In this document: positions 24,249 to 38,507 of the stretch, piece after piece
Layout of the letters: each line of letters opens with the position of its first letter
Numbering within the stretch: the first letter of the stretch is position 1
Source of the DNA: Flavobacterium sp. KS-LB2
GTDB taxonomy: Bacteria > Bacteroidota > Bacteroidia > Flavobacteriales > Flavobacteriaceae
Reading direction: 5' to 3'
Length of the DNA: 64,000 nucleotides
Assembly (NCBI RefSeq): GCF_036895565.1
Contig: NZ_CP145904.1
Location: 558,001 to 622,000 of the forward strand
Program-made: the position numbers and the translations under genes
Notes under the pieces: model-generated
The model's database searches: none
The model's input: the letters and a program-made list of their open reading frames with translations, nothing else
What the model was told of the DNA's origin: nothing

Positions 24249-26972
24249 ATGTCAAGAAGAGGCTGTTTTATAGTACTGGCAAGTTTTGTATGTTTTCTGA
24301 ATTCCTGTAATTCATCAGATGGGGATAGAAAGAAAATTTCTATAGGATTTTCACAAAGTATAGATCATGATATTTGGAGAAAATCAATGGACCATAGTAT
24401 GCAAGTAGAAGCCTCACTTCATCCAGAGGTCAACCTGACCATTTATAATGCGAATCGTAAAGCTAAAAAGCAAATTAATGATATTGAAAAATTTATAGCA
24501 GATAAAGTGGATGTTATTATTGTATCTCCTTTTGAATCAGATTCTATAATTCCTGTAATTGAAAAAGCAAATGCTATAGGGATTCCTGTTATTATAGTAG
24601 ATAGAAAAGTTAACACTTCAAATTATACATCATATTTAGGGGCAGATAATGTTGAAGTAGGGCGAATTGTCGGGCGACATATTGTTTCGTTATCTAGAGG
24701 GATTGCAAATGTAATCGAAATTAAAGGAGCTTCTTATACATCACCTGGTCTAGAAAGGAGTATGGGTTTTAGCCAAATTGTAAATCAATACCCTAATATT
24801 AAAGTAATTTCTATAGATGCACAAAATGATGAACTGCCTAAGGATTTGTTTATAAAAAGTTTGAAGAACTCTCCCGAAATAAATTTTGTTTATGCTTATA
24901 ATGATGTAATTGCTTATCAGGCTTGGAAAGCGACCAGAGGGGAAAAGGCAAAAAATAAAATTAAATTTATAGGAGTTGATGGAGTTAATGGACCAAATGG
25001 AGGTATTCAGCTTGTCAAAGACGGAGTTTTAGAATCCACTGTCTTATATCCTACAGGAGGCAGTGAAGCTATTAAATTAGCATTGAAAATAGCTAATAAC
25101 GAGATTGTACCGAAAAATAATAAACTCAATACTATATTAATTGACTCAGTTAATGCGGATATTATGAGCAATCAATTTGATAAGATCACAATTCATCAAT
25201 CTGATATAGAGCAACAACAGAGCATTATCAAAAGTCAAGAAGAGAAATACTCCAGTCAGAGCAATCTTTTAAAACTTTTATTTTTATTATTTATATTGGC
25301 ACTAGGTTTAGCTTTTTTTAGTATTTATTCCCGTATTACAATAAGTCGTAAAAAGATTGAATTAGAAGAGAGAAATAAGAAAATTAAAAGCCAAAGAAAT
25401 GAAATTAAAAAGTATTCAGAAGAATTAAAACAAAGTAACGAAGCTCGTTTAAATTTTTTTATGGGATTATCTCATGAATTTAAAACGCCTTTGACTTTAA
25501 TTTTAAGTTCTGTCGAATCTTTGGGTAGTGAACTCAAAACCAAAGGGAGTTCAGTAAATAAAGAAATTCATTTGATGTATAATAATTCCAGAAGGTTGCT
25601 CCGGCTAATCAATCAATTATTGGATTACAGAAAAGTAGAAGACAAAAAATTTATACTAAGGGCTTCAAGTACTAATTTATTAGATTTTTCAAAAAGTATC
25701 ATTATAGATTTTGAAAGAGAAGCAAAGAAACTTAATATTGATTTCTCCTTGGTGTCAAATAATCCTGAACTTGAGGTATATATAGATCGTAATTTAATGG
25801 ATAAAGTCTATTTTAATTTATTGTCAAATGCATTTAAATTCACTCCTGAAAATGGTAAAATAGCAATAAAAATAAGAGAAGATAAGACTAACAATGTAGT
25901 TAAAATATCTTTTAAAGATTCGGGAATAGGAATCCCGGAAAACGAATTAAAACAAGTTTTTAATGCCTTTTATCAAGGGTCGAATAATTATAGAAATAGC
26001 TCAGGGGTTGGGTTGCATTTATCAAAAAGTTTTATTGATTTGCATAAGGGAACTATAGAAATTATTTCTAAAAATGGGACCGAATTTATAATAACATTGC
26101 AGTTAGGAAAAGCACATCTTGACGAAAAAAATATTCTAATGAATCCGGTTTTAGAAATAATTAATCAAACAGATTATTTAGATGAAGAAGTGATTCAAAG
26201 TTCAGAGTCCAAAACTAATGAGGATAAATATTCTGTTTTGTATATCGAAGATAATAAGGATTTGTCTGATTTTATTTCAAATAAATTGTCTGTAGAGTAT
26301 AATGTTTATGCCTCTAATGGATTTGATGCTATTGAACAATCTTTGGAAATAATACCAGATGTTATTATTTGTGATTTGAACTTACCTGGAAAAAACGGTT
26401 TTGAAATATGTCAAATTTTAAAGAAAGATCTTAGAACTTCACATATTCCAGTTTTGATACTGACCGCCTCAGATGATCCGGATTCTTATTTAAAAGCATT
26501 AGAGAGTGGTGCTGATTTATTTTTGACAAAACCTTTTAATTTAAAAGTCTTATCCCAATCTATAAAAGGGTTGCTTTTTAATAGAGAGAAACTTCGATTT
26601 TATTATACCAATAATATTTTAAAAATCGAGGATGGTGATTTTGGTGTTTCTGAACAAGATTTTCTAAGAAAGTTGAATGATCTTATTGAAAAAAATTTGG
26701 ATAATTCTGCTTACACCGTTGAAGATCTCGCACGAAGTTTAACTATTTCTCGGGTACAATTGTATCGAAAAGTGAAAGCTATATTAGGAATTAGTGTCAG
26801 TGACTATATAAATAATATGCGATTAGATAAATCAAAGGAGCTGTTGAAAAAGTCAGAATTAAACATTTCAGAAATTGCCTATGCAGTGGGTTTCTCCTCA
26901 CCAAATTATTTTTCAACTTCTTTTAAAAATAAATTTGGTGTTACACCTAAAGAATATAAAAGTAAAAAATAG
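24249..26972 (+). CDS. Hybrid two-component sensor/regulator with sugar-binding domain (fructan locus regulator)
   Basis: A 907-residue one-protein two-component system. Order of parts: signal sequence (residues 1-19, ending LNSC), a periplasmic sugar-binding domain of the LacI/ribose-binding type (about 30-310), a membrane segment near 341-362, a histidine kinase with H409 in SHEFKTP, an ATPase domain (GIGIPENEL, SGVGLHLSKS), a receiver with D709 in ICDLNLPG, and a C-terminal AraC-type DNA-binding domain. It has the layout of BT1754, the fructose sensor of Bacteroides thetaiotaomicron. Its position at the head of the GH32/SusCD genes suggests that it senses fructose or a close sugar and activates them. 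Confidence 0.93.
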   Translation: MSRRGCFIVLASFVCFLNSCNSSDGDRKKISIGFSQSIDHDIWRKSMDHSMQVEASLHPEVNLTIYNANRKAKKQINDIEKFIADKVDVIIVSPFESDSIIPVIEKANAIGIPVIIVDRKVNTSNYTSYLGADNVEVGRIVGRHIVSLSRGIANVIEIKGASYTSPGLERSMGFSQIVNQYPNIKVISIDAQNDELPKDLFIKSLKNSPEINFVYAYNDVIAYQAWKATRGEKAKNKIKFIGVDGVNGPNGGIQLVKDGVLESTVLYPTGGSEAIKLALKIANNEIVPKNNKLNTILIDSVNADIMSNQFDKITIHQSDIEQQQSIIKSQEEKYSSQSNLLKLLFLLFILALGLAFFSIYSRITISRKKIELEERNKKIKSQRNEIKKYSEELKQSNEARLNFFMGLSHEFKTPLTLILSSVESLGSELKTKGSSVNKEIHLMYNNSRRLLRLINQLLDYRKVEDKKFILRASSTNLLDFSKSIIIDFEREAKKLNIDFSLVSNNPELEVYIDRNLMDKVYFNLLSNAFKFTPENGKIAIKIREDKTNNVVKISFKDSGIGIPENELKQVFNAFYQGSNNYRNSSGVGLHLSKSFIDLHKGTIEIISKNGTEFIITLQLGKAHLDEKNILMNPVLEIINQTDYLDEEVIQSSESKTNEDKYSVLYIEDNKDLSDFISNKLSVEYNVYASNGFDAIEQSLEIIPDVIICDLNLPGKNGFEICQILKKDLRTSHIPVLILTASDDPDSYLKALESGADLFLTKPFNLKVLSQSIKGLLFNREKLRFYYTNNILKIEDGDFGVSEQDFLRKLNDLIEKNLDNSAYTVEDLARSLTISRVQLYRKVKAILGISVSDYINNMRLDKSKELLKKSELNISEIAYAVGFSSPNYFSTSFKNKFGVTPKEYKSKK

Positions 26973-27013
26973 ATGGTTTTCTATTGAACGGGTTTCTTCC
27001 TAAGAAAAATAGC

Positions 27014-27190
27014 GTAACATAATTGTATTTTAGGTAACATAAGAGTAACTACAACGAAGTAGTTACTCTTTTTGTTTGTATCTAATGTGTTGATAATTAT
27101 AGTTTTGAGTGATTTTTAATGGTTTTGTAAAGCATTGTATGAAATCATACCATTCTTGATATAAAAGCCGATTTTTTAAAAATATCTTAG
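27014..27190 (+). promoter_or_regulatory. Fructan regulatory module, copy 1 (before the GH32-like gene)
   Basis: GTAACATAA occurs at 27014 and 27034, exactly 20 bases apart. It is followed by a perfect 12-bp hairpin, 27041-27052 with 27059-27070, with loop AACGAA and then TTTGTTT, and by ATATCTTAG at 27182. Copy 2 at 29449-29625 has the same parts in the same order and total length. The hairpin may also end the sensor transcript, as it lies 69 bases after its stop. The direct repeat is a good candidate binding site for the AraC-type domain of the sensor. Confidence 0.7.
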
Positions 27191-27362
27191 TAATTGAATT
27201 TAAGGTCTAAACATAATTATTTTTTTTGATTTTAAATTGCAGCTGCGAAAGATCTTGAAAGTTTCTAAATTCTTTTTGATCGTTTCCTTTTTCTCACATA
27301 AATATTTTATCTGAGAGTATCAAATCTTTTTGCGCACTTATAATTCTCGTAAACCATTCAAT

Positions 27363-28901
27363 ATGAAAATAAATCGCACGTTTTTATGCCTTCCACTTTG
27401 TTTAGCATTATTTAATAATTGCACTAAAGAGGATAAACCAACTGAAACCCCTATTGTAGAAACAAACGCTCCTGAGTGTCAAACTCCTAATGAATCGGAT
27501 AATACGTATCGAACATTTTTTAAGCCTTCTATTGGTTGGGTTGGTGATCCCATCCCATTTTATGAAAATGGTATCTTCCATCTTTTCTATTTGTACGATG
27601 CAAGAAATACAATGCCCACCTTTCACCCATGGTATAAAGTAACTACGTCTGATTTTGCAACGTTCACTGACACTAGTGAAATGATTGCCACAGGGATTTC
27701 GAATCAGCAGGACGGAGCATTGGGAACCGGATCCGTTTTTAAAAGGAATGGAATTTATTACGCTTTCTACACAGGACATAACGGAATTCTTGATCCTAAA
27801 GAAAAAATTATGCTGGCAACGTCTACGGATTTAAAAAATTGGACCAAAGATTCTTCATTTTTATTGCAGGCTTCTTGGGGATATGATCGCAATGAATTTA
27901 GAGATCCAATCGTCATAGAAAATAAAAGTACAGGAATGTATAAAATGTTGATTGCGACACGTTCTGAGGTTAGTTTAGTTTCTAACAGCACTGTGCCATG
28001 GCGGGCGGTTATCGCGCAATACAGTTCTGCGAATTTGAGAGATTGGATTTTGGAAAAGCCATTTTATGAGGATGCAACTACCTTTATAACAGAATGTCCT
28101 GATGTGTTCACGATGGGTGATTATCAGTATTTGATTTACTCCAATATTGATGATCGAATGGTACACTATAAATACCGTTTACTGACAGCCAATACTTGGA
28201 TTACTCCTGTAAATACTGCCTTAGATGGAATTGCTTTCTATGCTGGAAAAACAGTTACCGATGGTGTAAACCGATATATAACTGGATGGTGTCCTACTAA
28301 AAATAAAAATAGTGATGCCGCTGTTTTTGATTGGGCTGGATCGCTTGTAACGCATCGACTTGTTCAGCATCCAAATGGAACATTAGGTATTGCGATACCT
28401 AATGGTGTAGACAACAAGTTTATTATTAATAGAGCTTTAAATTCGAAAATAGACTTTGGAACTTCAAAGCAAGGAGATGCCTATACATTGAAAGGTAATT
28501 CGGCTGAAAAAGCATTTTCAGTGTTTGACAGAGAAACTGGAGCATTTAAAATTAAAGCACATATAAAAGCGATATCATCCACTCAATTTGGTTTTGAATT
28601 TGGAGCCTGTGGAACACGAAATGAAGTATTTGCCATTGTATTCGATTTAGCCAAAAATCAATTACGATTAGATAAGGTTATAAAAAATGCGTCCTCCTTA
28701 AATCTAACGCAGCTTCCGCTAAACGTTCCGGCTAATAAAGAGTTTGATGTTACAATCATTTCTGAAAATTCGGTATGTGTGATATATATTAATGACGAAA
28801 TCGCTTTTACAAACCGTATCTATAAAATGAATCAGAATCCTTGGGCTATTTTTGCTGATAATGGTGAAGTCACTTTTTCAGACTTAAAATTATTTAAATA
28901 A
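27363..28901 (+). CDS. Divergent GH32-family fructan hydrolase, lipoprotein
   Basis: A 512-residue secreted lipoprotein (signal ending LFNNC) with a five-bladed propeller of the GH32 type and a C-terminal beta-sandwich (about 370-512). The three catalytic acids are at the expected places: D62 in WVGDP (in place of the usual WMNDPNG), D181 in FRDPIV (RDP motif) and E244 in TECPDVF (EC motif). Start 27363 is chosen because it begins the signal peptide; an upstream TTG would spoil it. It probably cleaves a fructan or fructo-oligosaccharide, but substrate and linkage cannot be read from sequence. It has its own regulatory module and is separated from the next gene by 749 bases. Confidence 0.8.
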   Translation: MKINRTFLCLPLCLALFNNCTKEDKPTETPIVETNAPECQTPNESDNTYRTFFKPSIGWVGDPIPFYENGIFHLFYLYDARNTMPTFHPWYKVTTSDFATFTDTSEMIATGISNQQDGALGTGSVFKRNGIYYAFYTGHNGILDPKEKIMLATSTDLKNWTKDSSFLLQASWGYDRNEFRDPIVIENKSTGMYKMLIATRSEVSLVSNSTVPWRAVIAQYSSANLRDWILEKPFYEDATTFITECPDVFTMGDYQYLIYSNIDDRMVHYKYRLLTANTWITPVNTALDGIAFYAGKTVTDGVNRYITGWCPTKNKNSDAAVFDWAGSLVTHRLVQHPNGTLGIAIPNGVDNKFIINRALNSKIDFGTSKQGDAYTLKGNSAEKAFSVFDRETGAFKIKAHIKAISSTQFGFEFGACGTRNEVFAIVFDLAKNQLRLDKVIKNASSLNLTQLPLNVPANKEFDVTIISENSVCVIYINDEIAFTNRIYKMNQNPWAIFADNGEVTFSDLKLFK

Positions 28902-29023
28902 AAGGAGTATAGAAAAGGATGACTTTAATCTTTATTATAACGCTAGTTTTTATAAAGATTCAGGTTATTGATTAAAATTAATTCTGTTCATTTATCACTT
29001 TATAACCTGCGTAATGTTAAAAT

Positions 29024-29056
29024 AAAAACCATCAAAATCTAATTTTGATGGTTTTT
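29024..29056 (+). terminator. Terminator after the GH32-like gene
   Basis: Stem 29024-29038 with 29042-29056 (AACCATCAAAAT paired with ATTTTGATGGTT), three-base loop and a T run after it. It lies 123 bases after the stop. Confidence 0.85.
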
Positions 29057-29247
29057 TTATGGCTTTATTTCAATGTAATGATTCTGGTGTTTTCCACACT
29101 GGATGTAACTATTGGGAATCTGGGTTCGAGTGCCTTTTCCTTAATAAAACGGAGTAGAACATACATTAGTAATAGTTTTAATATAAGTTGTCTTATTCTT
29201 GTTGCAATTCCTATACTCAATTATAAAAATATCCTTGAATCTTGAGA

Positions 29248-29376
29248 TTAAACTGCATTTGCATCTGTGTAATTTTTCTTAAAAGCTTGAGAATACTTCA
29301 TAATATAGAATTGCTTAATAAATTCATTTTTTTTATCGATTATTTTTAAACTTCCTCTAAAAATAAATTTAAAATT
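29248..29376 (-). pseudogene. Possible remnant of a decayed gene (C-terminal fragment)
   Basis: The minus strand has a 42-codon open stretch without its own start. It contains peptide-like text such as FRGSLKIIDKKNEF and KYSQAFKKNYTDANAV, then a stop at 29248. Two stops in the same frame lie directly upstream, while a short stretch in another frame (MDFIQLVKF) precedes it, as would be seen after a frameshift. It is the only non-regulatory content I found in the 28902-29650 spacer besides the terminator. It could equally be chance in AT-rich DNA; no family is recognised with certainty. Confidence 0.3.
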
Positions 29377-29448
29377 TTACTAATTGAATAAAATCCATCA
29401 AGTGACTTTTTTTTATTCCTGAATATCTATTTTTTTTAAAAAATACGT

Positions 29449-29625
29449 GTAACATGATTGTAACACGTGTAACATAATCGAACTACAACGAAGTAGTTAT
29501 TTGTTTATTTTAAATTGTAACTATCTGATAATAAGTATTTTGTTGTTTAATCGCTATTGGGAAACAGTATTAAATGAAATTGTAACATCCTCAAAATAAA
29601 AGTGAAATTTATGCGGATATCTTAG
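29449..29625 (+). promoter_or_regulatory. Fructan regulatory module, copy 2 (before the transporter-SusCD unit)
   Basis: GTAACATGA at 29449 and GTAACATAA at 29469 are again 20 bases apart, with an extra GTAACAC at 29460. Next come the palindrome AACTAC-AACGAA-GTAGTT (29481-29498) and ATATCTTAG at 29617, 34 bases before the transporter start. The distance from the second repeat to ATATCTTAG is 148 bases in both copies. Here the hairpin is short and follows a separate terminator, so its conservation points to regulation and not termination. Confidence 0.7.
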
Positions 29626-29650
29626 CAATCTAATTTAATATTTTTTGATA

Positions 29651-30970
29651 ATGAAAAAAATTGTTGTTTGGGCTTTAATTGCTTCATTAGCAGGTTTCCT
29701 GTTTGGTTTTGATACTGTTGTTATTTCTGGAGCAGATAAAAAGCTTCAAGTTCTTTGGAATTCTTCGGATGCATTTCACGGGACAGTTGTTATGGGAATG
29801 GCATTATGGGGAACTGTACTTGGGGCAATATTTGGAGGGATTCCTACTAATAAGATTGGGAGAAAAAACACCTTATTGTGGATAGGGATTTTATTTTTGT
29901 TTTCTGCAATTGGATCTGCTTTTGCAAATAATCCATTTGTGTTTGCCGCATTTAGGTTTGTTGGTGGTCTTGGTGTTGGGGCATCGACCATTGCAGCACC
30001 TGCATATATTTCAGAAATAGCTCCTGCAAAAGACAGAGGTAAGCTGGTTGCTTTTTATCAATTCAATATTGTTTTAGGGATTCTGATGGCTTTTTTGTCT
30101 AATTATCTTTTAAATGATGTAGGTGAAAATTCGTGGAGATGGATGATGGGAGTACAAGCAATTCCATCAGTAATCTATATTTTATTAATTATTTCAATTC
30201 CTGAAAGCCCAAGATGGTTATTGTCTAAACTCAAGAATGACGAGGCTAGAAGAGTGTTGCAATTAATGGGGCAAGAAGCGGATTATGAAAATATAAAAGA
30301 AGAAATAGAAAAAGATAATAACGATGCTTCTAAGGCTGATGATACTATATTTTTAAAGAAATACAGAACACCTCTAGTATTGGCTTTTTTAATGGCTTTT
30401 TTCAATCAATTATCTGGAATTAATGCTTTTTTATATTATTCCAGCAGAATATTTCAAGAGGCGGGTCTTGGTGAAAGTACCGCTTTACTAAGTAGTATTG
30501 GAATAGGAGTGGTGAATTTACTTTTCACACTATTGGGCGTTTTTTTAATCGACAGATTAGGGCGAAAAATATTAATGTACATTGGTTCTGTGGGGTATAT
30601 TATATCACTTTCACTTGTTGCAATGGCTTTCTTTTTTCACTGGGAAGGAATGGCTGTTCCCGTTTTCTTATTCTTGTTTATTGCTGCACATGCGATAGGT
30701 CAAGGTGCTGTAATTTGGGTTTTTATATCAGAAATTTTTCCAAATCATCTAAGAGCATCAGGGCAATCCTTTGGGAGTACTACGCATTGGGTTCTGGCAG
30801 CTATTATTCCATCATTAATTCCGTATCTATTTTCTACAGTAGGGCCTGGAGTAGTATTTATATTTTTCGCAGTGATGATGGTTTTTCAACTCTTGTTTGT
30901 TCGATTTATGATGCCAGAAACCAAAGGAATTTCTTTAGAGGAGTTAAGTAAAAATTTAATAAACGAATAA
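29651..30970 (+). CDS. MFS sugar transporter (sugar porter family), probable fructose importer
   Basis: A 439-residue inner-membrane protein with twelve predicted helices. Sugar porter signatures are present: NKIGRKNTLL between helices 2 and 3, PESPRWL after helix 6, the QLSGINAFLYYS segment of helix 7, DRLGRK between helices 8 and 9 and PETKG at the end. Start 29651 (MKKIVVWAL) is used; the TTG two codons upstream is less likely. It begins a tight operon: the GH32 gene starts 4 bases after its stop. By analogy with BT1758 of the B. thetaiotaomicron fructan locus, it should carry fructose into the cell. Confidence 0.9.
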   Translation: MKKIVVWALIASLAGFLFGFDTVVISGADKKLQVLWNSSDAFHGTVVMGMALWGTVLGAIFGGIPTNKIGRKNTLLWIGILFLFSAIGSAFANNPFVFAAFRFVGGLGVGASTIAAPAYISEIAPAKDRGKLVAFYQFNIVLGILMAFLSNYLLNDVGENSWRWMMGVQAIPSVIYILLIISIPESPRWLLSKLKNDEARRVLQLMGQEADYENIKEEIEKDNNDASKADDTIFLKKYRTPLVLAFLMAFFNQLSGINAFLYYSSRIFQEAGLGESTALLSSIGIGVVNLLFTLLGVFLIDRLGRKILMYIGSVGYIISLSLVAMAFFFHWEGMAVPVFLFLFIAAHAIGQGAVIWVFISEIFPNHLRASGQSFGSTTHWVLAAIIPSLIPYLFSTVGPGVVFIFFAVMMVFQLLFVRFMMPETKGISLEELSKNLINE

Positions 30971-30974
30971 AATT

Positions 30975-32570
30975 ATGAGCAAATTAAAAATTATTAAATA
31001 TGTTGGAATGTTAAGTTGCATAATGATTTTTACAACCATATTTAGTTGTAAAGAGGGTTCTTTAACAGACAAGAAATATACTGAAGAAGAATTGTATCGG
31101 CCTAATTTTCATTTCACTCCTAAAAAGGGCTGGATGAATGATCCTAACGGGATGTTTTACTACAACGGGTATTACCATCTTTTTTATCAATATTATCCGG
31201 ATTCAAATGTTTGGGGGCCCATGCACTGGGGTCACGCCATCAGTACTGATCTTATAACATGGGTTGAAAAACCCATCGCACTTTATCCAGATGAAAAAGG
31301 ATATATTTTTTCAGGAAGTGCAGTGGTTGATGTAAAAAATACTTCAGGATTTGGGAGCGTAAAAAATCCTCCAATGGTAGCCATGTTTACCTATCATGAT
31401 ATGAAGAAAGAAAAGGCTGGGGAGACAAATTATCAGTCGCAAGGTATAGCGTATTCCTTAAATGAAGGGTTGACTTGGACGAAATATGAAGCGAATCCAA
31501 TTATTAAAAATCCAAACATTAAAGATTTTAGAGACCCTAAAATGACTTGGGATGCGATTCATCAACAATGGTTAATGATACTTGCTGCAGGAGATAAAAC
31601 AATGCTTTACGGTTCTAAAAATTTAAAAGAATGGGCACTGCTTTCAGATTTTGGTAAAGAGATTGGAGCTCATGAGGGTGTTTGGGAATGCCCTGATTTT
31701 TTCCCTATGCTAGTTGATGGTACAGATGATTACAAATGGGTCATGTTATCAAGTATTAATCCTGGAGGACCTAATGGTGGCTCAGCTACACAATATTTTG
31801 TAGGTGATTTTGATGGAAAAAAATTCACTATTGATGAAACTTTTTCAAAAGATGTAAAGCAACAAAAAGGGCTTTGGATTGACTATGGTAGAGACAATTA
31901 TGCAGGAGTTACTTGGGCAAATATTTCTGAAGTCGATGGAAGAAAATTATTTATAGGATGGATGTCAAATTGGCAATATGCTGAAAAAGTACCTACCGAA
32001 AAATGGAGAAGCAGTATGACTATACCTAGAGAGTTAGTACTTGTTAAAGATAACGATCATTATATAGTTTCTTCTAAACCCGCAAAGGAATTACAAAATT
32101 ATATTGCAAAAACGATTAAAAAAGAATCTCTTAAAATAGATAAGGAAACTGTCTTGGTAGATAAGTCAGTAGTCGATTTATCAAAACTTGATATTCATTT
32201 TTCTTTAAAGAACCTAAAAAAGGATGTTTACACTTTTTCCTTATCAAATGATGCTAAGAATACAATTCAATTTGGAATCAATAATAAGGAGAATTACTTT
32301 TTTATTGATAGATCAAAATCTGGGAAATTAGCTTTTTCTAATCTTTTCGCAAAAAACATTTCAAAGGCTCCTTTTAAGGGGAGTTTTGATAAAATGGATG
32401 TAAGAATAATCGTTGATAAAACCTCAATTGAAATTTTTTATAACAATGGAAAAACAGTTATGACTGAAATATTTTTTCCAGATAAACCAATGGAATATTT
32501 TTCAGTTTCTAAAGCTAATACGGAGTATACCATTGAAAACTTAATTATTAACCAACTAAATTTTAACTAA
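30975..32570 (+). CDS. GH32 fructan hydrolase (levanase/inulinase-type), lipoprotein
   Basis: A 531-residue lipoprotein (signal ending TIFSC, Cys25) with a complete GH32 active site: nucleophile D56 in WMNDPNG, D187 in FRDPK and acid/base E238 in WECPD. The propeller is followed by the C-terminal beta-sandwich (about 385-531). It should hydrolyse fructans or sucrose-like substrates to fructose at the cell surface or in the periplasm. It sits between the transporter and susC with gaps of only 4 and 12 bases. Linkage preference (beta-2,6 or beta-2,1) and exo/endo action cannot be read from sequence. Confidence 0.94.
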   Translation: MSKLKIIKYVGMLSCIMIFTTIFSCKEGSLTDKKYTEEELYRPNFHFTPKKGWMNDPNGMFYYNGYYHLFYQYYPDSNVWGPMHWGHAISTDLITWVEKPIALYPDEKGYIFSGSAVVDVKNTSGFGSVKNPPMVAMFTYHDMKKEKAGETNYQSQGIAYSLNEGLTWTKYEANPIIKNPNIKDFRDPKMTWDAIHQQWLMILAAGDKTMLYGSKNLKEWALLSDFGKEIGAHEGVWECPDFFPMLVDGTDDYKWVMLSSINPGGPNGGSATQYFVGDFDGKKFTIDETFSKDVKQQKGLWIDYGRDNYAGVTWANISEVDGRKLFIGWMSNWQYAEKVPTEKWRSSMTIPRELVLVKDNDHYIVSSKPAKELQNYIAKTIKKESLKIDKETVLVDKSVVDLSKLDIHFSLKNLKKDVYTFSLSNDAKNTIQFGINNKENYFFIDRSKSGKLAFSNLFAKNISKAPFKGSFDKMDVRIIVDKTSIEIFYNNGKTVMTEIFFPDKPMEYFSVSKANTEYTIENLIINQLNFN

Positions 32571-32582
32571 ACCAACTAAATT

Positions 32583-35500
32583 ATGAAACACAAAATTATT
32601 CTTTACTTAATCCTTATGGGTTCGTTTTTTTCGGTATCGGCCCAAAATATAGAAATCAAAGGAGTGGTAACTTCTTCCGAAGACGGAATGTCTCTTCCTG
32701 GTGCATCAGTACTGGTTTCTGGAACTAAAGTCGGAACAACTACGGATCTCGACGGTCAGTTTTCGATAAACAATGTAGACAAAAATGCAACTTTAATATT
32801 TAGTTTTACTGGATATGAATCTCAGTCTGTTAAACTTAATGGACAAACCACTTTAAAAATTGTATTAAAAGCAGAGTCTTTGAAACTGCAAGAGGTTGTT
32901 GTAACTGGTTATTCTAAAGAGAAAAAAGCCGATTTAACTGGTGCAGTTACCGTAGTAGAATTAAAACCTATTACAGGTCAAACCATGAGCTCTGGAAATG
33001 CTATGCAAGCTTTGCAAGGAAGAGTTGCTGGTTTGAATATAGAAAAATCAGGAGATCCAAGTGGGGCAAATAGTAGAATATTAATTAGAGGGGTAAGTAC
33101 ACTTGGTAATACAGACCCATTATATGTTATCGATGGTGTTCCTACAACAAGACCAGAGGTTTTTGCTAGTTTGAGTCCAAGTGCTATTGCATCTATTCAA
33201 GTTTTAAAAGATGCTTCGGCTTCCTCTATTTATGGGTCTAGAGCAGCGAATGGAGTAATCATTGTTACTACTAAAAATGCAGCAAAAGGCGGCTTGACTA
33301 AAGTATCTTACAGTACAAACGTTTCTATTCTTTCAGAGAAAAAGCAACGATATAAAATGCTAAACGCTTTGGATAGAGGAAAAGTGTTATGGCAAGCCTC
33401 TGTTAACGATGGAGCAAGTCCGTCTGGTGGATATGGAGAAATCTATGATTTTGATTGGAATAATGATTTCAGTAATCCAATATTGAATAGTGTAAGCGTA
33501 AAACCGTATGTAGGAGGAGATACTAATGTTCCGTCAGGAGATACTGATTGGCAAGATACTGTATACAAAACAGGGCTTCTTATTAATAATGATTTATCTG
33601 TCTCTGGAGGATCTGATAAAGCGAATGCAGTATTGAACTTAGGATATTTAGATAATTCTGGTATGCTAAGATATACTAATTATGACCGATATTCTGCAAG
33701 ACTTAATGCCAATTTCAAGTTGTTTAACGATAAAGTAAGATTTGGTGTGAATTCTCAATTTACACAATCAAGCGAAAGAAATGCTGCTAACGACGTTGGA
33801 GGCGCTCCAACACCAGGTTTAGCAATAACTCTTGCCCCAACGATTCCAGTTTACACTGCTTCTGGTGAATATGCTGGCCCATTGGGATCCGGTTATTCAG
33901 ATAGAAATAATCCACTATTAATGCAATATTTGAACAGATGGGATAATAGCAAAAAAATGGCTTTGTACGGTAATGTTTTTACTGAAATTGATATTTTGAA
34001 AGGGTTAACTTTAAGAAATAGTATTGGTATGGATTTTAATGATTTCAGCAGAAAAGACATTGAACCGATCGTGAGAAATGGATTTGTCAACCGAAATAAC
34101 AATAGTTTAGCTTTTGATACCAATAAATATTCTAGTTTAACAATTTCAAATACTTTAAATTATAATTTCAACGTTTCAGATCATAAATTTGGAATCCTAG
34201 TAGGAACGGAATCAACCAAAACGGATTTGAATACGTTGTTTGCTAGTGCTGAAGGATTCGCGGTTGAATCAGAATCTTATTTTACACTTTCTGCGGCTAC
34301 TGGAGCTAGAACAAATAATGGAATTTCAACGGGTAGTAGACTACTTTCTCAGTTTGGTAAATTTAATTATTCGTTTTCTGACCGATATTTAGCTTCATTT
34401 ACTATTCGTAGAGATGGTTCATCAAGATTTGGTCAAGACAATAGATATGGTATTTTTCCAGCTGTTACTGCAGGATGGAGGATAAATAATGAAGAATTCT
34501 TTAAAAATGTAACAGCAGTTTCAAACTTGAAACTACGTGCTGGTTATGGAGAAGTAGGAAATCAATCTATTGGAGATAATGCTCGTTTTGGTTTATATGA
34601 AGCGAGATATGGCCCAAATCAAAATGTTTATAATCCGGATTTTTTCAACATTTATTATAATGTAGGTACTGCATATGATTTAAATGGAACTAATACAGGA
34701 AACTTGCCTTCAGGATTTGTGTCTATACAGGCAGCGAATTCAGGATTGAAATGGGAAACTACCAAAGAGGTGAACGTAGGTTTGGATTTTGGTTTTTTCG
34801 GAGATAAATTATCAGGTTCATTTGATTATTTCTCAAGAAAGACAGTGGGAATTTTGATTAAACCACCAGTTGCATCAGCTGTTGGAGAAGGACAGCAACG
34901 TTTTGTAAATGGTGCTTCGACTGCAAATAAAGGTTGGGAACTTACAGTAGGATATGCAGATAAATTAGATAATGGATTGTCTTTTAATGTTACTACAAAT
35001 TTTGGTGCAACTCAAAATAAAATCACAGATTTGCCTGAAGTAGTAAGAGCAGCATATCCTGGAACTGCAGCTAATTCGATAATTGGTCATTCACAGTTTG
35101 AAGTTTTTGGATATAAAACCGATGGATTATTCCAAAGTCAAGCTGAAATAGATGCACATGCTACTCAAGTAGGTTCTCGATTGGGAGGTATCAAATTTGT
35201 TGATATCAATGGAGATAGTGTGATTAATTCAGATGATAGAACTTTTATTGGTACAACACTTCCAAAATTAGAATACGGTATTAATATTAGTTTAGCGTAT
35301 AAAAATATTGATTTCTCCATTTTTGGTTCTGGTGTGGCTGGAAGAGTTGGGGTTGATCCGTATGTTTTTTGGAATAATTTTGTTCAAGGAAGAGATAATG
35401 CAGGGCCAGGAACATTGAATGCTTGGACACCAACAAATACTAATACTGAGGTACCATCTCTTTCATTAGCAAACAATGACACACAGATGTCAGATTATAT

Positions 35501-35732
35501 CTTAAGAAATAATTCTTATTTCAAAGTTAGAAACATGCAAATTGGGTATTCATTCTCAGATGAGTTAGTTCAAAAATCGGGATTCATCACAAGTTGTAGA
35601 ATCTATGCTCAAGGAGAAAATTTATTTTGGTTTACTCCAAAAGGATATATTGGTTCCGATCCAGAGCGAACAGATGTGAATAGAATACCAGTACCAACTA
35701 CCTTCTCATTAGGTGTAAACTTTAATTTTTAA
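32583..35732 (+). CDS. SusC-like TonB-dependent transporter for fructo-oligosaccharides
   Basis: A 1049-residue outer-membrane barrel of the SusC/RagA family. It has a signal peptide ending VSAQ, a carboxypeptidase-regulatory-like domain (about 22-100, DLDGQFSINNV), a TonB box near LQEVVVTGY, a plug domain with the DPLYVIDGVP and IQVLKDASASSIYGSRAANG motifs, and the beta-barrel. It pairs with the SusD gene 9 bases downstream and should import oligosaccharides across the outer membrane using TonB energy. The substrate is inferred from the GH32 neighbours. Confidence 0.95.
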   Translation: MKHKIILYLILMGSFFSVSAQNIEIKGVVTSSEDGMSLPGASVLVSGTKVGTTTDLDGQFSINNVDKNATLIFSFTGYESQSVKLNGQTTLKIVLKAESLKLQEVVVTGYSKEKKADLTGAVTVVELKPITGQTMSSGNAMQALQGRVAGLNIEKSGDPSGANSRILIRGVSTLGNTDPLYVIDGVPTTRPEVFASLSPSAIASIQVLKDASASSIYGSRAANGVIIVTTKNAAKGGLTKVSYSTNVSILSEKKQRYKMLNALDRGKVLWQASVNDGASPSGGYGEIYDFDWNNDFSNPILNSVSVKPYVGGDTNVPSGDTDWQDTVYKTGLLINNDLSVSGGSDKANAVLNLGYLDNSGMLRYTNYDRYSARLNANFKLFNDKVRFGVNSQFTQSSERNAANDVGGAPTPGLAITLAPTIPVYTASGEYAGPLGSGYSDRNNPLLMQYLNRWDNSKKMALYGNVFTEIDILKGLTLRNSIGMDFNDFSRKDIEPIVRNGFVNRNNNSLAFDTNKYSSLTISNTLNYNFNVSDHKFGILVGTESTKTDLNTLFASAEGFAVESESYFTLSAATGARTNNGISTGSRLLSQFGKFNYSFSDRYLASFTIRRDGSSRFGQDNRYGIFPAVTAGWRINNEEFFKNVTAVSNLKLRAGYGEVGNQSIGDNARFGLYEARYGPNQNVYNPDFFNIYYNVGTAYDLNGTNTGNLPSGFVSIQAANSGLKWETTKEVNVGLDFGFFGDKLSGSFDYFSRKTVGILIKPPVASAVGEGQQRFVNGASTANKGWELTVGYADKLDNGLSFNVTTNFGATQNKITDLPEVVRAAYPGTAANSIIGHSQFEVFGYKTDGLFQSQAEIDAHATQVGSRLGGIKFVDINGDSVINSDDRTFIGTTLPKLEYGINISLAYKNIDFSIFGSGVAGRVGVDPYVFWNNFVQGRDNAGPGTLNAWTPTNTNTEVPSLSLANNDTQMSDYILRNNSYFKVRNMQIGYSFSDELVQKSGFITSCRIYAQGENLFWFTPKGYIGSDPERTDVNRIPVPTTFSLGVNFNF

Positions 35733-35741
35733 TTAATTCTC

Positions 35742-37481
35742 ATGAAAAAATATAATAAAATAGTTATCAGCTTCTTGTCGGTTTTACTTCTGGCATCATG
35801 TAGCGAAGAATTTTTAGATTATGAACCAACAGGCGTATTGTCTTCTTCAAATGTGGCGACAGCTGCAAATGCAGAAGCACTTGTAAATGCGGCTTATGCT
35901 GCAATTGGAAATGACGAAATGGTAGGCCCAATAACAAATCAATGGGTATATGGAAGTGTACGATCTGATGATGCCTATAAAGGAGGAGGAGGTCGTGGCG
36001 ATGTAGATGTGATTGACCGTTATGAACAATACAATACAACTATTGCAGATTACGGTGACTGGATGTTGCCTAGAACTTGGACAAATCATTATAAAGCAAT
36101 TTCTAGAGCTAATTTTGCCTTGTCTGTTATCAATGTCATTCCTGATGCGGATTACCCATTAAAAAAAGTAAGACAAGCAGAATTACGTTTTTTAAGAGCA
36201 CATTCTCATTTTATGCTAAAGTTATTGTTTAATAAAGTTCCTTATATTACAGAAGAACTGTCTCAGGAAGATATATTAAAAACGTCAAATGACTTAACAA
36301 GTGATGCTTTATGGGACAAAATTGCAGAAGATTTTCAATTTGCATTTGATAATTTACAACAAAGTCAAGATCAAGTGGGTAGAGCAGATAAAAATGCTGC
36401 TGCTGCTTATCTTGCTAAATTAAATTTATATCAGTCATATAAGCAAAATGATGCACATCAAGTAACTAGTATAGATGCAACAAAATTACAAAAAGTAATA
36501 GATTATGCTGATAAAGTGACAGGAAGTTTAGAGCCTGACTTTGCAAATAATTTTTTAGATGGTCATGATAATGGTTCAGAATCTATTTGGGCTGTACAAT
36601 TCTCTATAAATGACGGAACCAATACAGGAAGAGTAAGTTTTGTTACAGGATTAAACTCTCCTCATGGAACGCCTCTGTATGGATGTTGTGGCTTTCATAT
36701 GGCAAGCCAAAATATGGTGAATGCATTTAGAACTGATGCTAATGGCTTACCATTATTAGACACTTTCAATAATTCAGATATTTTTAATACAATAACTAAT
36801 GGTGATGCTCCACTATCAGCTGGAGTTACTTTAGACCCAAGAATTGATCATACTGTTGGTGTTCCGGGAAGACCATTTAAATATAAAAACACGCTAAAAA
36901 ATTCAGGTGATATGGTCTATAAATTGAGTTGGGCTAGAGATCCAGGTGTTTATGGATACTTTGGAAATATGAAAGAGCAACAATCTCCCGACTGCTCTTG
37001 TTATGTGAAGAACGGGCCATTCATTGGGACTTCTAAAAACGTTGATTTTATCAGATATGCAGATGTGTTATTATTTAAAGCAGAAGCATTAATCCAATTA
37101 AATAGATATGCCGAAGCATTGCCAATAATTAATCAAATTAGAGCTAGAGCTGCGGCTAGTACTGCAATGACTTTAGCGGCTGGAGCTTCAAGTGTTTATA
37201 AAGTTCAACCGTATACTTCTTTTGCTTCAAAAGATTATGCAATGAAAGCATTAATGTTTGAAAGACGTTTAGAATTTGGTATGGAAGGACCAAGATTCTT
37301 TGACCTTGTAAGATGGGGTATAGCTGAGCCTGTTTTGAATGCTTACCTTACTGTTGAGAAAACTAAAAGAGATTTTCTTTCAAATGCTAAGTTTACAGCA
37401 GGTAGAGATGAATATTATCCAATACCTCAAAGAGAAATTGATTTTACTGGAGGTTTGTACAAGCAAAATCCTGGATATTAA
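35742..37481 (+). CDS. SusD-like surface glycan-binding lipoprotein
   Basis: A 579-residue RagB/SusD-family lipoprotein. The signal ends LLASC (Cys20) followed by SEEFLDYEPTG, the typical family start. TPR-like helices make up much of the body (ADYPLKKVRQAELRFLRAHSHF) and the C-terminus has the FEFGMEGPRFFDLVRWG-type signature (here LEFGMEGPRFFDL) and the YYPIPQREI end. It forms the lid of the SusC channel and binds fructan at the cell surface. It is the last gene of the transporter operon; no SusE-like partner follows. Confidence 0.95.
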   Translation: MKKYNKIVISFLSVLLLASCSEEFLDYEPTGVLSSSNVATAANAEALVNAAYAAIGNDEMVGPITNQWVYGSVRSDDAYKGGGGRGDVDVIDRYEQYNTTIADYGDWMLPRTWTNHYKAISRANFALSVINVIPDADYPLKKVRQAELRFLRAHSHFMLKLLFNKVPYITEELSQEDILKTSNDLTSDALWDKIAEDFQFAFDNLQQSQDQVGRADKNAAAAYLAKLNLYQSYKQNDAHQVTSIDATKLQKVIDYADKVTGSLEPDFANNFLDGHDNGSESIWAVQFSINDGTNTGRVSFVTGLNSPHGTPLYGCCGFHMASQNMVNAFRTDANGLPLLDTFNNSDIFNTITNGDAPLSAGVTLDPRIDHTVGVPGRPFKYKNTLKNSGDMVYKLSWARDPGVYGYFGNMKEQQSPDCSCYVKNGPFIGTSKNVDFIRYADVLLFKAEALIQLNRYAEALPIINQIRARAAASTAMTLAAGASSVYKVQPYTSFASKDYAMKALMFERRLEFGMEGPRFFDLVRWGIAEPVLNAYLTVEKTKRDFLSNAKFTAGRDEYYPIPQREIDFTGGLYKQNPGY

Positions 37482-37610
37482 GGATTAAATTTGTTTTGAT
37501 GTTTGTTTAAATTGTGTTAAAGGTAAGATATGTTCTTACCTTTAACTTTTAAATGTTTTATTGAATAGGTCGGTTTTTTGCTTATTCTTAATTTTTTAAT
37601 AAGTTTTATT

Positions 37611-38507
37611 ATGAATGCAAAATACACTTTAAGTGCTGTATGTTTTGGGGAAGTTTTATGGGATATTTTTCCAACACATAAAAAAATTGGAGGAGCTCCA
37701 TTAAATGTGGCTTTACGAATGAATACTTTTGGAGTAGAAACATCTATGATAAGTCGTGTTGGTGTAGATGAAAATGGAGAAGATATTTTATCTTTTTTAA
37801 GCAGTCAAGAAATCACTACTGATTTAATTCAAGTAACTAAAGAATACAAAACTGGCGCGGTACATGTAATGATAAACGAAAAAGGAAATGCTTCCTATGA
37901 TATATTGTATCCTTCTGCTTGGGATAAAATTGTAGAAACTGAAACAATGGATAAGGTGATTTCTGAAGCAGATGTATTTGTGTTTGGAAGTTTAGCGTCT
38001 AGAGATGAGGTTTCTAGAGAAACTTTGAATTCTATTTTGGATAAAGCAAAATATAAAGTTTTTGATGCCAATCTAAGAGCTCCATACTATAGAATAGAGG
38101 TTTTGAATAAGCTGATGCAAAAAGCTGATTTTATTAAGTTGAATGATGAAGAATTACGTGAAATAAGTAGAGAGTTGGGATCCCCATATAACTCATTTGA
38201 ACAAAATATTAAATTCATTGCTGAGAAAACAAATACAAAACAGGTTTGTGTAACTAAGGGAGAATTTGGAGCTGTTTTATATTATAATGATAAATTTTAT
38301 TACAATAGTGGTTATTTTGTAAAAGTAGTTGATACAGTAGGTGCTGGAGATTCTTTTTTAGCCTCGCTTATTATCCGATTGCTTAGAGGAAAATCGCCAC
38401 AAAAAGCATTAAATTATGCCTGTGCAGTAGGTGCTCTAGTTGCTGGTGAAGAGGGGGCTAATCCTAAGATTAATGAAAAGGAAATTAAAAAATTCATGAT
38501 GATTTGA
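37611..38507 (+). CDS. PfkB-family sugar kinase, probable fructokinase
   Basis: A 298-residue ribokinase-fold kinase. It begins AVCFGEVLWDIFP, has the N-terminal signature GGAPLNVALRMNTFG and the catalytic C-terminal signature DTVGAGDSFLASL with the active-site Asp. Start 37611 is chosen because the upstream TTG would add an odd hydrophobic leader. The position after SusCD and the match to the order of the B. thetaiotaomicron locus (BT1757) suggest that it phosphorylates fructose. A 129-base gap to susD without a terminator suggests it may belong to the same operon. Confidence 0.88.
   Translation: MNAKYTLSAVCFGEVLWDIFPTHKKIGGAPLNVALRMNTFGVETSMISRVGVDENGEDILSFLSSQEITTDLIQVTKEYKTGAVHVMINEKGNASYDILYPSAWDKIVETETMDKVISEADVFVFGSLASRDEVSRETLNSILDKAKYKVFDANLRAPYYRIEVLNKLMQKADFIKLNDEELREISRELGSPYNSFEQNIKFIAEKTNTKQVCVTKGEFGAVLYYNDKFYYNSGYFVKVVDTVGAGDSFLASLIIRLLRGKSPQKALNYACAVGALVAGEEGANPKINEKEIKKFMMI

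Follow-up and report, generated by a model that had tools for sequence, protein, structure and literature searches.

Two modules in the fructan locus of Flavobacterium sp. KS-LB2, contained in the 64,000-nucleotide stretch analysed here (the window), each probably constitute a complete promoter that depends on an activator, the reader being the fructose-sensing hybrid two-component system (HTCS) encoded next to them. The layout, which consists of a -7 box, a proximal repeat (21-22 bp) and a distal repeat (20-22 bp), is conserved beside HTCSs of the BT1754 type in the Flavobacteriaceae. Judged by its sequence, the module is a real, conserved and well-defined regulatory unit of a known kind of regulator, and the unexpected element is a relative of this regulator that is free of a kinase. 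What is known of the DNA sites of HTCSs comes mostly from predictions, with binding assays in a few cases, and the half-site, promoter box and spacing obtained here from dozens of related loci allow a testable model to be drawn up of the way in which a regulator bound to the membrane gains access to a promoter.

Anatomy of the two modules

An earlier sequence-only reading of this DNA had described in both modules a pair of GTAACATRA repeats 20 bp apart, a palindrome that is the same including its loop, and the string ATATCTTAG (27182-27190 and 29617-29625), found 148 bases from the second repeat in either module. All of these are present by direct reading (Table 1), with the correction that the second repeat is followed by the palindrome after 13 bases in module 1 and 12 bases in module 2. 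It is also confirmed by open reading frames and Pfam that one module is 5' of the GH32-like gene and the other 5' of the transporter-GH32-SusCD unit. The sensor gene was said to have no module, and indeed no profile match that would indicate autoregulation precedes it on its strand, either in the window or in 56 named loci; in one of the latter (L109), a partial match precedes the sensor on the opposite strand, facing a divergent GH32 gene. The role of ATATCTTAG has to be revised, given that it is the -7 promoter box, of the TAnnTTTG type, and not a further operator. The promoter-proximal repeat pair had been overlooked, so that the repeats proposed as the operator are conserved but are only a part of it, with a second direct repeat adjoining the promoter. 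Overall, that interpretation is partly supported, being right in outline and incomplete.

Alignment of the two modules with 33 intergenic regions of relatives reveals as conserved blocks the distal pair, a dyad-like middle element, the proximal pair ending TTGnnACATnnTnAAAAT, and a -7 box TAnnTT(T/A)G. In the 35 rows, the columns of the box hold T in 33 and A in 35, followed by T in 33, T in 35, A in 20 and G in 23. This is the -7 box TAnnTTTG of flavobacterial housekeeping promoters, and the boxes of the window, TATCTTAG, are one letter off the consensus. In the available text of PMC9723704, TAnnTTTG is placed at -12 to -5 in a flavobacterium. With this placement, transcripts would start approximately 21 bases before the ATG at 29651, the likely start of the transporter gene, and approximately 170 bases before the ATG at 27363, the likely start of the GH32 gene behind module 1.

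The two modules are 63% identical overall. In module 1, the distal region contains also a weak half-site at 27025 and an additional GTAAC at 27045, and the proximal half-sites are 20 bp apart by direct reading (18 bp according to the automatic picker). In module 2, the distal half-sites GTAACATGA, GTAACACGT and GTAACATAA stand at offsets 0, 11 and 20, the distance from the distal to the proximal repeat is 113 bp by direct reading, and the second proximal half-site is 36 bp upstream of the -7 box. We propose that module 1 is a diverged copy that arrived together with the inserted GH32 gene, with a weaker proximal site.

Conservation of the layout in relatives

The sample comprised 397 genomes of the family, with HTCS matches accepted at E<=1e-150. 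Of 39 loci fetched (the DNA around 38 HTCS matches in other genomes and the site in G049), 33 gave an intergenic region; the remaining ones were dropped, with the transporter far from the sensor (L043, L072) or no sensor-transporter pair (L078-L081). The transporter gene directly follows the sensor in 33 of the 39 loci, with a gap of 203-554 bases, and a GH32 gene between the two, as here, was found in the named relatives L082 and Flavobacterium sp. AED (L084). The strict GTAACATRA pair was rejected as the conserved unit, given that it is found in 2 of the 397 genomes (the own one and G049) versus 6 matches of the backwards control, which places the pair of G049 at chance level. The conservation that the sequence-only reading had called for is found for the relaxed GTAACA with its spacing and not for the exact wording.

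Counts made free of alignment in the 33 regions place pairs of GTAACA (up to one mismatch) at 20, 21 and 22 bp in 15, 12 and 6 loci, some of the 21-bp pairs being the proximal repeats. The expectation is 0.5-0.65 per spacing, and the maximum at any spacing in 200 shuffles is 5. With the addition of 41 regions from named loci, a set of 74 mutually related regions was obtained, 72 before the transporter and 2 before an inserted GH32 gene. In this set the same pairs occur at 20 bp in 37 regions, at 21 bp in 23 and at each spacing of 112-115 bp in 12-16, for an expectation of about 1 or fewer and a shuffle maximum of 7 at any spacing (200 shuffles). Spacings of 133-135 bp form a further peak, with 11-13 regions each. 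Half-site pairs 10 and 11 bp apart are found in 11 and 17 regions (about 1 expected). The distance from half-site to -7 box is 36 bp in 29 regions, for which 0.28 are expected and the shuffle maximum is 4 at any spacing.

Sites selected by a profile were measured by a picker with bounded windows (17-24 bp for the distal pair, 17-26 bp for the proximal pair, 35-55 bp to the box), and under these bounds the distal spacing is 20-22 bp in 61 of 64 sites, which is the direct repeat about 21 bp apart before targets that was predicted for HTCS operators in Bacteroides. The proximal spacing is 21-22 bp in 56 and the distal repeat stands 112-116 bp upstream of the proximal one in 55 of these sites. The most constant distance in the module is that from the proximal half-site to the -7 box, 36 bp in 59 of the 64. 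These figures exclude matches whose start is beyond position 20 of the model or whose end is short of position 180, as well as the exact duplicates L088, L091 and L111; the picker mis-set the distal repeat of module 2 (24/122) and some others, and only the alignment-free count in 74 regions is independent of the bounds and of the selection.

The profile was trained on the intergenic regions of 30 relatives, excluding the own genome and leaving out L064, L070 and L071. It recovers module 2 at 29444-29627 (E=1.8e-17) and module 1 at 27012-27191 (E=9.8e-10), and in 110 kb of the own genome the only other matches below 0.1 are the twins of these modules in an inverted duplicate of the locus, with the next best at 0.13. 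In the 56 named loci (1.11 Mb, 3 of them exact duplicates of training loci), it gives 39 matches in 36 loci. Of these matches, 37 have the HTCS on one side and the transporter or GH32 gene on the other; the exceptions are the one in L109 and one at an unrelated place in L121. Flavobacterium johnsoniae CI04 (L090) carries the module too.

Within the 3.41-Mb genome the module is equally restricted. A lone GTAACATRA carries little weight, given that the window contains 4 for 1.42 expected, a number reached by 6 of 100 shuffles. The pair GTAACATRA-N8..14-GTAACATRA occurs 4 times for 0 control matches, in the two modules of the window and in the two of the inverted copy. When up to 2 mismatches are allowed, the palindrome of 18 bases marks the same 4 places (backwards control, 2 matches). 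A sequence-only covariance model, built from 38 of 52 candidate sites of relatives (L044, L054, L067, L073, L076 and matches weaker than 1e-9 being left out), finds in the whole genome, with 150 of 5062 first-look candidates scored, the four modules only (E from 1.7e-19 to 5.2e-15), and therefore the predicted regulon here consists of the two fructan loci. The next best match (E=0.0355; G000:C1 1685899-1685974, minus strand) consists of the proximal part and the -7 box only.

The likeness of the two modules could in principle be a mere product of duplication, with functionless repeats. The locus is indeed duplicated in this genome, the modules keep the overall identity given above, and most relatives have no GH32 gene at the place behind module 1. 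This explanation is nonetheless hardly credible, given that it is contradicted by the same blocks and spacing in relatives whose sensors are mostly 45-58% identical, with the DNA between the blocks diverged.

Not every part of the module is shared so widely. The palindrome, the arms of which reach 10 bp with flanks in module 1, was rejected as a general part, with all six core pairs kept in just 7 of 66 sites, namely the four copies of the own genome, L083 and both modules of L084. Paired changes preserve the dyad: one from T-A to C-G at 27044-27069 versus the twin in the second locus copy, and one from C-G to T-A in L083. Many other sites read more like AACTAyAnCGnttTCGT at this place, and in 32 of the 66 sites the second distal repeat has a stretch AAC[TA]A[CT] behind it. 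By this comparison the perfect palindrome is limited to the closest kin, where it could be the site of a lineage-specific factor or a weak terminator of the preceding gene; given that a T-rich run follows, it could end transcripts of the sensor gene. In 55 of 64 sites, the dyad-like middle element has the -7 box 100-102 bp downstream of it. A hairpin at this element was considered and found unsupported, given that its stem potential (mean 4.28 versus 3.40 shuffled, 59 sites) is equalled at several other positions.

In Flavobacterium undicola (L112, 9038-10285) and F. sufflavum (L128, 13559-14809), an alpha-galactosidase-like gene, assigned by Pfam in L112, is inserted between sensor and transporter and is preceded by a module. 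This suggests that the switch also governs the use of raffinose-type sugars, and module and accessory enzymes seem to move together.

Which protein reads the module

The sensor protein combines a periplasmic sensor, a histidine kinase, a receiver and an AraC-type helix-turn-helix (HTH) in one chain of 907 aa (Pfam), as is characteristic of an HTCS. In an alignment of 19 sequences, H409, D709 and the HIP motif are invariant; the roles of the two residues are presumably those known for the family. Its sensor half (residues 30-324) matches PDB 2x7x (chain named SENSOR PROTEIN, E=4.6e-58), which we take to be the sensor domain of BT1754, and its receiver-AraC part matches 12aw (named hybrid two-component system protein, E=2.8e-47). 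A 2x7x-like periplasmic-binding-protein sensor beside GH32/SusCD genes places it in the BT1754 subgroup. The AraC-type reader suggested from the sequence alone is in line with this output domain and with the degenerate direct repeat that is kept in the sensor-transporter gaps of relatives.

An HTCS is found in 36 and the module in 33 of the 397 genomes, the own genome included, with both in 30 (Fisher p 9e-36), counts that are not independent due to shared ancestry, that include many module genomes which fed the model, and that come from a module scan with strict filters in which weak matches are lost. The near-absence of the module from the 361 genomes free of an HTCS, with just 3 matches, is not circular. 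When ten chosen genomes were scanned with the covariance model, G127, which has no HTCS match, gave none, G049 and G157 gave weak matches (best E about 0.01), and each of the other seven gave one strong match.

Sinomicrobium (G094) carries a module in the absence of a full-length HTCS match. The regulator that adjoins this same promoter module is a 512-aa open frame with a sensor domain, a likely membrane span and an AraC domain, the last being 59% identical over 106 aa; the domain search gave no HisKA, HATPase or receiver match for it. Among the best 120 of 2948 matches, the short form is found in four named Sinomicrobium species and one further sequence with 78-100% identity, and given this recurrence an assembly error in G094 is unlikely. 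Four of six Sinomicrobium genomes contain both the short regulator and the module, and two contain neither. The modules are 53, 147, 222 and 935 bases downstream of the regulator, with one additional weak match in G094. This co-occurrence suggests that the AraC domain has retained the module through the loss of the phosphorelay. Taken together, the co-occurrence in the family and the Sinomicrobium case are the best support that it is most probably the AraC domain of the sensor that reads the module. The Sinomicrobium regulator also offers a natural comparison for the contribution of the phosphorelay.

The HTH letters are suggestive in this respect. In the second HTH, most regulators accompanied by a module read SPNYFST or SPGYFST, and those of L064, L070, L071 and L098, which have none, read SPSYFS; there are exceptions both ways, with SPSYFST beside a module in L063, L072, L097 and L102, and PNYFST without one in L043 and L078. 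In G228, a second, weaker module (L208 6994-7173, E=4.1e-5) precedes a gene for a DUF4960 protein, with PfkB, GH32 and DUF4960 genes as neighbours on the same strand.

Several observations weigh against the sensor as the reader of a two-repeat promoter, in addition to the interdependence of the counts, the strictness of the scan and the bounded windows of the picker. Six genomes have the HTCS without the module (G023, G157, G252, G311, G320, G376), and apart from G094 two have the module without a full-length HTCS match. In G206 it precedes FtsX/MacB genes and may be a chance match; in G270 (L206 7508-7652) it precedes a transporter and a GH32 gene, with no sensor domain found in a search that had no positive control, and it may be an orphan module or have a different reader. 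Of the 56 named loci, 20 have no profile match, of which 15 are titled outside the Flavobacteriaceae (one just as 'Bacteroidota bacterium'); the others are L089, in which the sensor is cut by a contig end, L092, L098, L119 and L082, the last of these being a close relative that was binned from a metagenome and is obviously mislabelled as to species. Furthermore, module 1 has a degenerate proximal site, and 113 bp is no obvious whole number of helical turns.

The case of G270 and the six genomes that have an HTCS and no module would also fit a reader other than the HTCS, namely an unlinked regulator co-occurring with fructan loci, with the HTCS acting elsewhere. This is improbable, given that, of the 36 named loci in which a match was obtained, 35 have the module next to the sensor, that the Sinomicrobium regulator, although reduced to sensor and AraC domain, retains the module, and that a direct repeat suits an AraC-type reader.

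With the HTCS as the reader, the following mechanism is proposed. Periplasmic fructose, released by the GH32 enzymes, would bind the sensor, and phosphorylation of the receiver would free the AraC domain. Each AraC domain would cover two GTAAC half-sites about 10-11 bp apart, and a dimer would cover each 20-22-bp repeat; the frequent half-site pairs at 10 and 11 bp and the offsets in module 2 would fit an AraC domain with two HTHs on neighbouring half-sites. The proximal dimer would recruit RNA polymerase, the downstream proximal half-site starting 36 bp before the -7 box, in the place of a -33 box. The distal, better-matching repeat would capture the membrane-held regulator and help to fill the weaker proximal repeat, possibly by looping, and module 2 would drive transporter-GH32-SusC-SusD.

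The distal repeat alone might instead be the HTCS operator, with the proximal block belonging to the promoter or to another factor and no cooperation between them. In the 35 rows, the initial G of the distal half-sites is kept in 34 and 32, better than the downstream proximal one (30 of 35) and the upstream proximal one (hardly ever), and the degenerate proximal pair of module 1 is also in line with such an arrangement. The proximal pair has nonetheless a like half-site and the same two-turn spacing, its distance to the box is the most constant one, both among the selected sites and in the alignment-free count, and a lone distal site about 150-170 bp from the -7 box would be unusual for an activator from general knowledge, all of which make this alternative unlikely. 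It is conceivable, though somewhat doubtful, that flavobacterial fructose HTCSs in general act through a fixed promoter with two operators, in which the membrane-anchored regulator bridges the distal and proximal repeats about 113 bp apart, and that the Sinomicrobium protein is a kinase-free transmembrane one-component reader of the same promoter, so that this control can dispense with the phosphorelay.

Related systems and the fructan locus

In Escherichia coli, AraC binds at araBAD to direct repeats about two turns apart at the promoter and to a further upstream site. The modules resemble this arrangement in their promoter-adjacent two-turn repeats and upstream site, and looping is a candidate model here. 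They differ in that AraC is a soluble, arabinose-binding regulator with other spacing, and in that the upstream site is here a repeat pair of its own; with regard to looping between two operators, the constant distal-proximal spacing alone is seen.

HTCSs are a major class of regulators for polysaccharide use in Bacteroides, according to the available text of PMC11253607, in which, for two HTCSs, the receiver-AraC part is reported to bind fragments of promoters and to be restrained by a receiver-AraC contact via the S/CHIP loop; HIP is also invariant in the alignment of 19 sequences described above. The sequence-only reading had held that few HTCS operators are mapped. This may be true of experiments; as predictions, motifs were already given in 2013 for 16 of the 36 HTCSs of B. 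thetaiotaomicron, all of them direct repeats with a mean spacing of 21 bp and among them that of the fructose HTCS BT1754 (HTCS_Fru), in the part of PMC3878776 available. In the accessible text of PMC9845299, reporter activity that depends on levan and on BT1754 is obtained with the 300 bp upstream of BT1763. The HTCS_Fru regulon is similar to the present case in its sensor type (periplasmic-binding-protein domain, kinase, receiver and AraC), its direct-repeat motif, 21 bp being the mean spacing over HTCS motifs, and its fructoside targets with inner-membrane transporter and kinase. It differs in belonging to another bacterial class and in that a second promoter-adjacent repeat at a fixed distance is not described in that part of PMC3878776. 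Regulators of the XylR type (LacI-like sugar-binding domain and AraC; marine XylRA in the available text of PMC12125979) resemble the Sinomicrobium variant in their lack of a kinase and their AT-rich direct repeats, and differ from it given that the Sinomicrobium protein has a likely membrane span between sensor and AraC and is HTCS-derived by sequence. Direct-repeat HTCS motifs are known as predictions from Bacteroides (PMC3878776), and neither the two-repeat promoter layout nor a kinase-less HTCS was found described in the accessible portions of the open-licence literature searched.

The sensor is followed in order by genes for a GH32 enzyme, an MFS transporter, a second GH32 enzyme, SusC-like and SusD-like proteins, and a PfkB kinase (Table 1). 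Their spacing suggests that transporter, GH32, SusC and SusD are co-transcribed.

Table 1. Elements of the two modules, genes of the fructan locus and the short regulator of Sinomicrobium
Feature	Position	Strand	Basis
Module 1, predicted distal operator: direct repeat GTAACATAA at 27014 and 27034, 20 bp	27014..27042	+	direct reading
Module 1, palindrome AACTACAACGAAGTAGTT	27047..27064	+	direct reading
Module 1, middle element TAAn4yTGn5yArn5TTr, 100 bp upstream of -7 box	27083..27108	+	alignment of relatives
Module 1, predicted proximal operator, degenerate: GTAAAG 27127, ATACCATTC 27147	27127..27162	+	profile position, letters read
Module 1, -7 box TATCTTAG, inside ATATCTTAG	27183..27190	+	alignment
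Module 2, predicted distal operator: GTAACATGA 29449, GTAACACGT 29460, GTAACATAA 29469	29449..29477	+	direct reading
Module 2, palindrome AACTACAACGAAGTAGTT	29481..29498	+	direct reading
Module 2, middle element TAAn4yTGn5yArn5TTr, 100 bp upstream of -7 box	29518..29543	+	alignment of relatives
Module 2, predicted proximal operator: GAAACA 29561, GTAACATCC 29582, 21 bp apart	29561..29597	+	reading, alignment
Module 2, -7 box TATCTTAG	29618..29625	+	alignment
HTCS sensor gene	24249..26972	+	Pfam: Peripla_BP_4, HisKA, HATPase_c, receiver, AraC-type HTH
GH32 gene behind module 1, BT1760-like C-terminal domain	27330..28901	+	Pfam, open reading frame
Structural unit behind module 2: MFS sugar transporter, GH32, SusC-like, SusD-like	29645..37481	+	Pfam, open reading frames
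PfkB-family sugar kinase gene, 3' of SusD-like gene	37578..38507	+	Pfam
Kinase-less Sinomicrobium regulator, about 508 aa: sensor domain, likely membrane span, AraC domain	L205 7754-9292	-	P0002-P0006 also short form

The inverted duplicate of the locus had been overlooked by the sequence-only reading. It is found at approximately G000:C1 821041-835234 and corresponds to 24302-38487 of the window, over 14.2 kb with 89.7% identity. The sensor gene (80.3%) and the kinase gene (84.9%), which are the ends of the duplicated locus, are the least alike. Most middle genes and the intergenic DNA are 91.5-96.9% identical, with the sensor-GH32 intergenic region at 96.9%, the GH32-transporter one at 91.5%, and the inner GH32 gene at 86.9%. 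The interior of the locus may be more alike than its ends due to gene conversion or to selection acting on the promoters.

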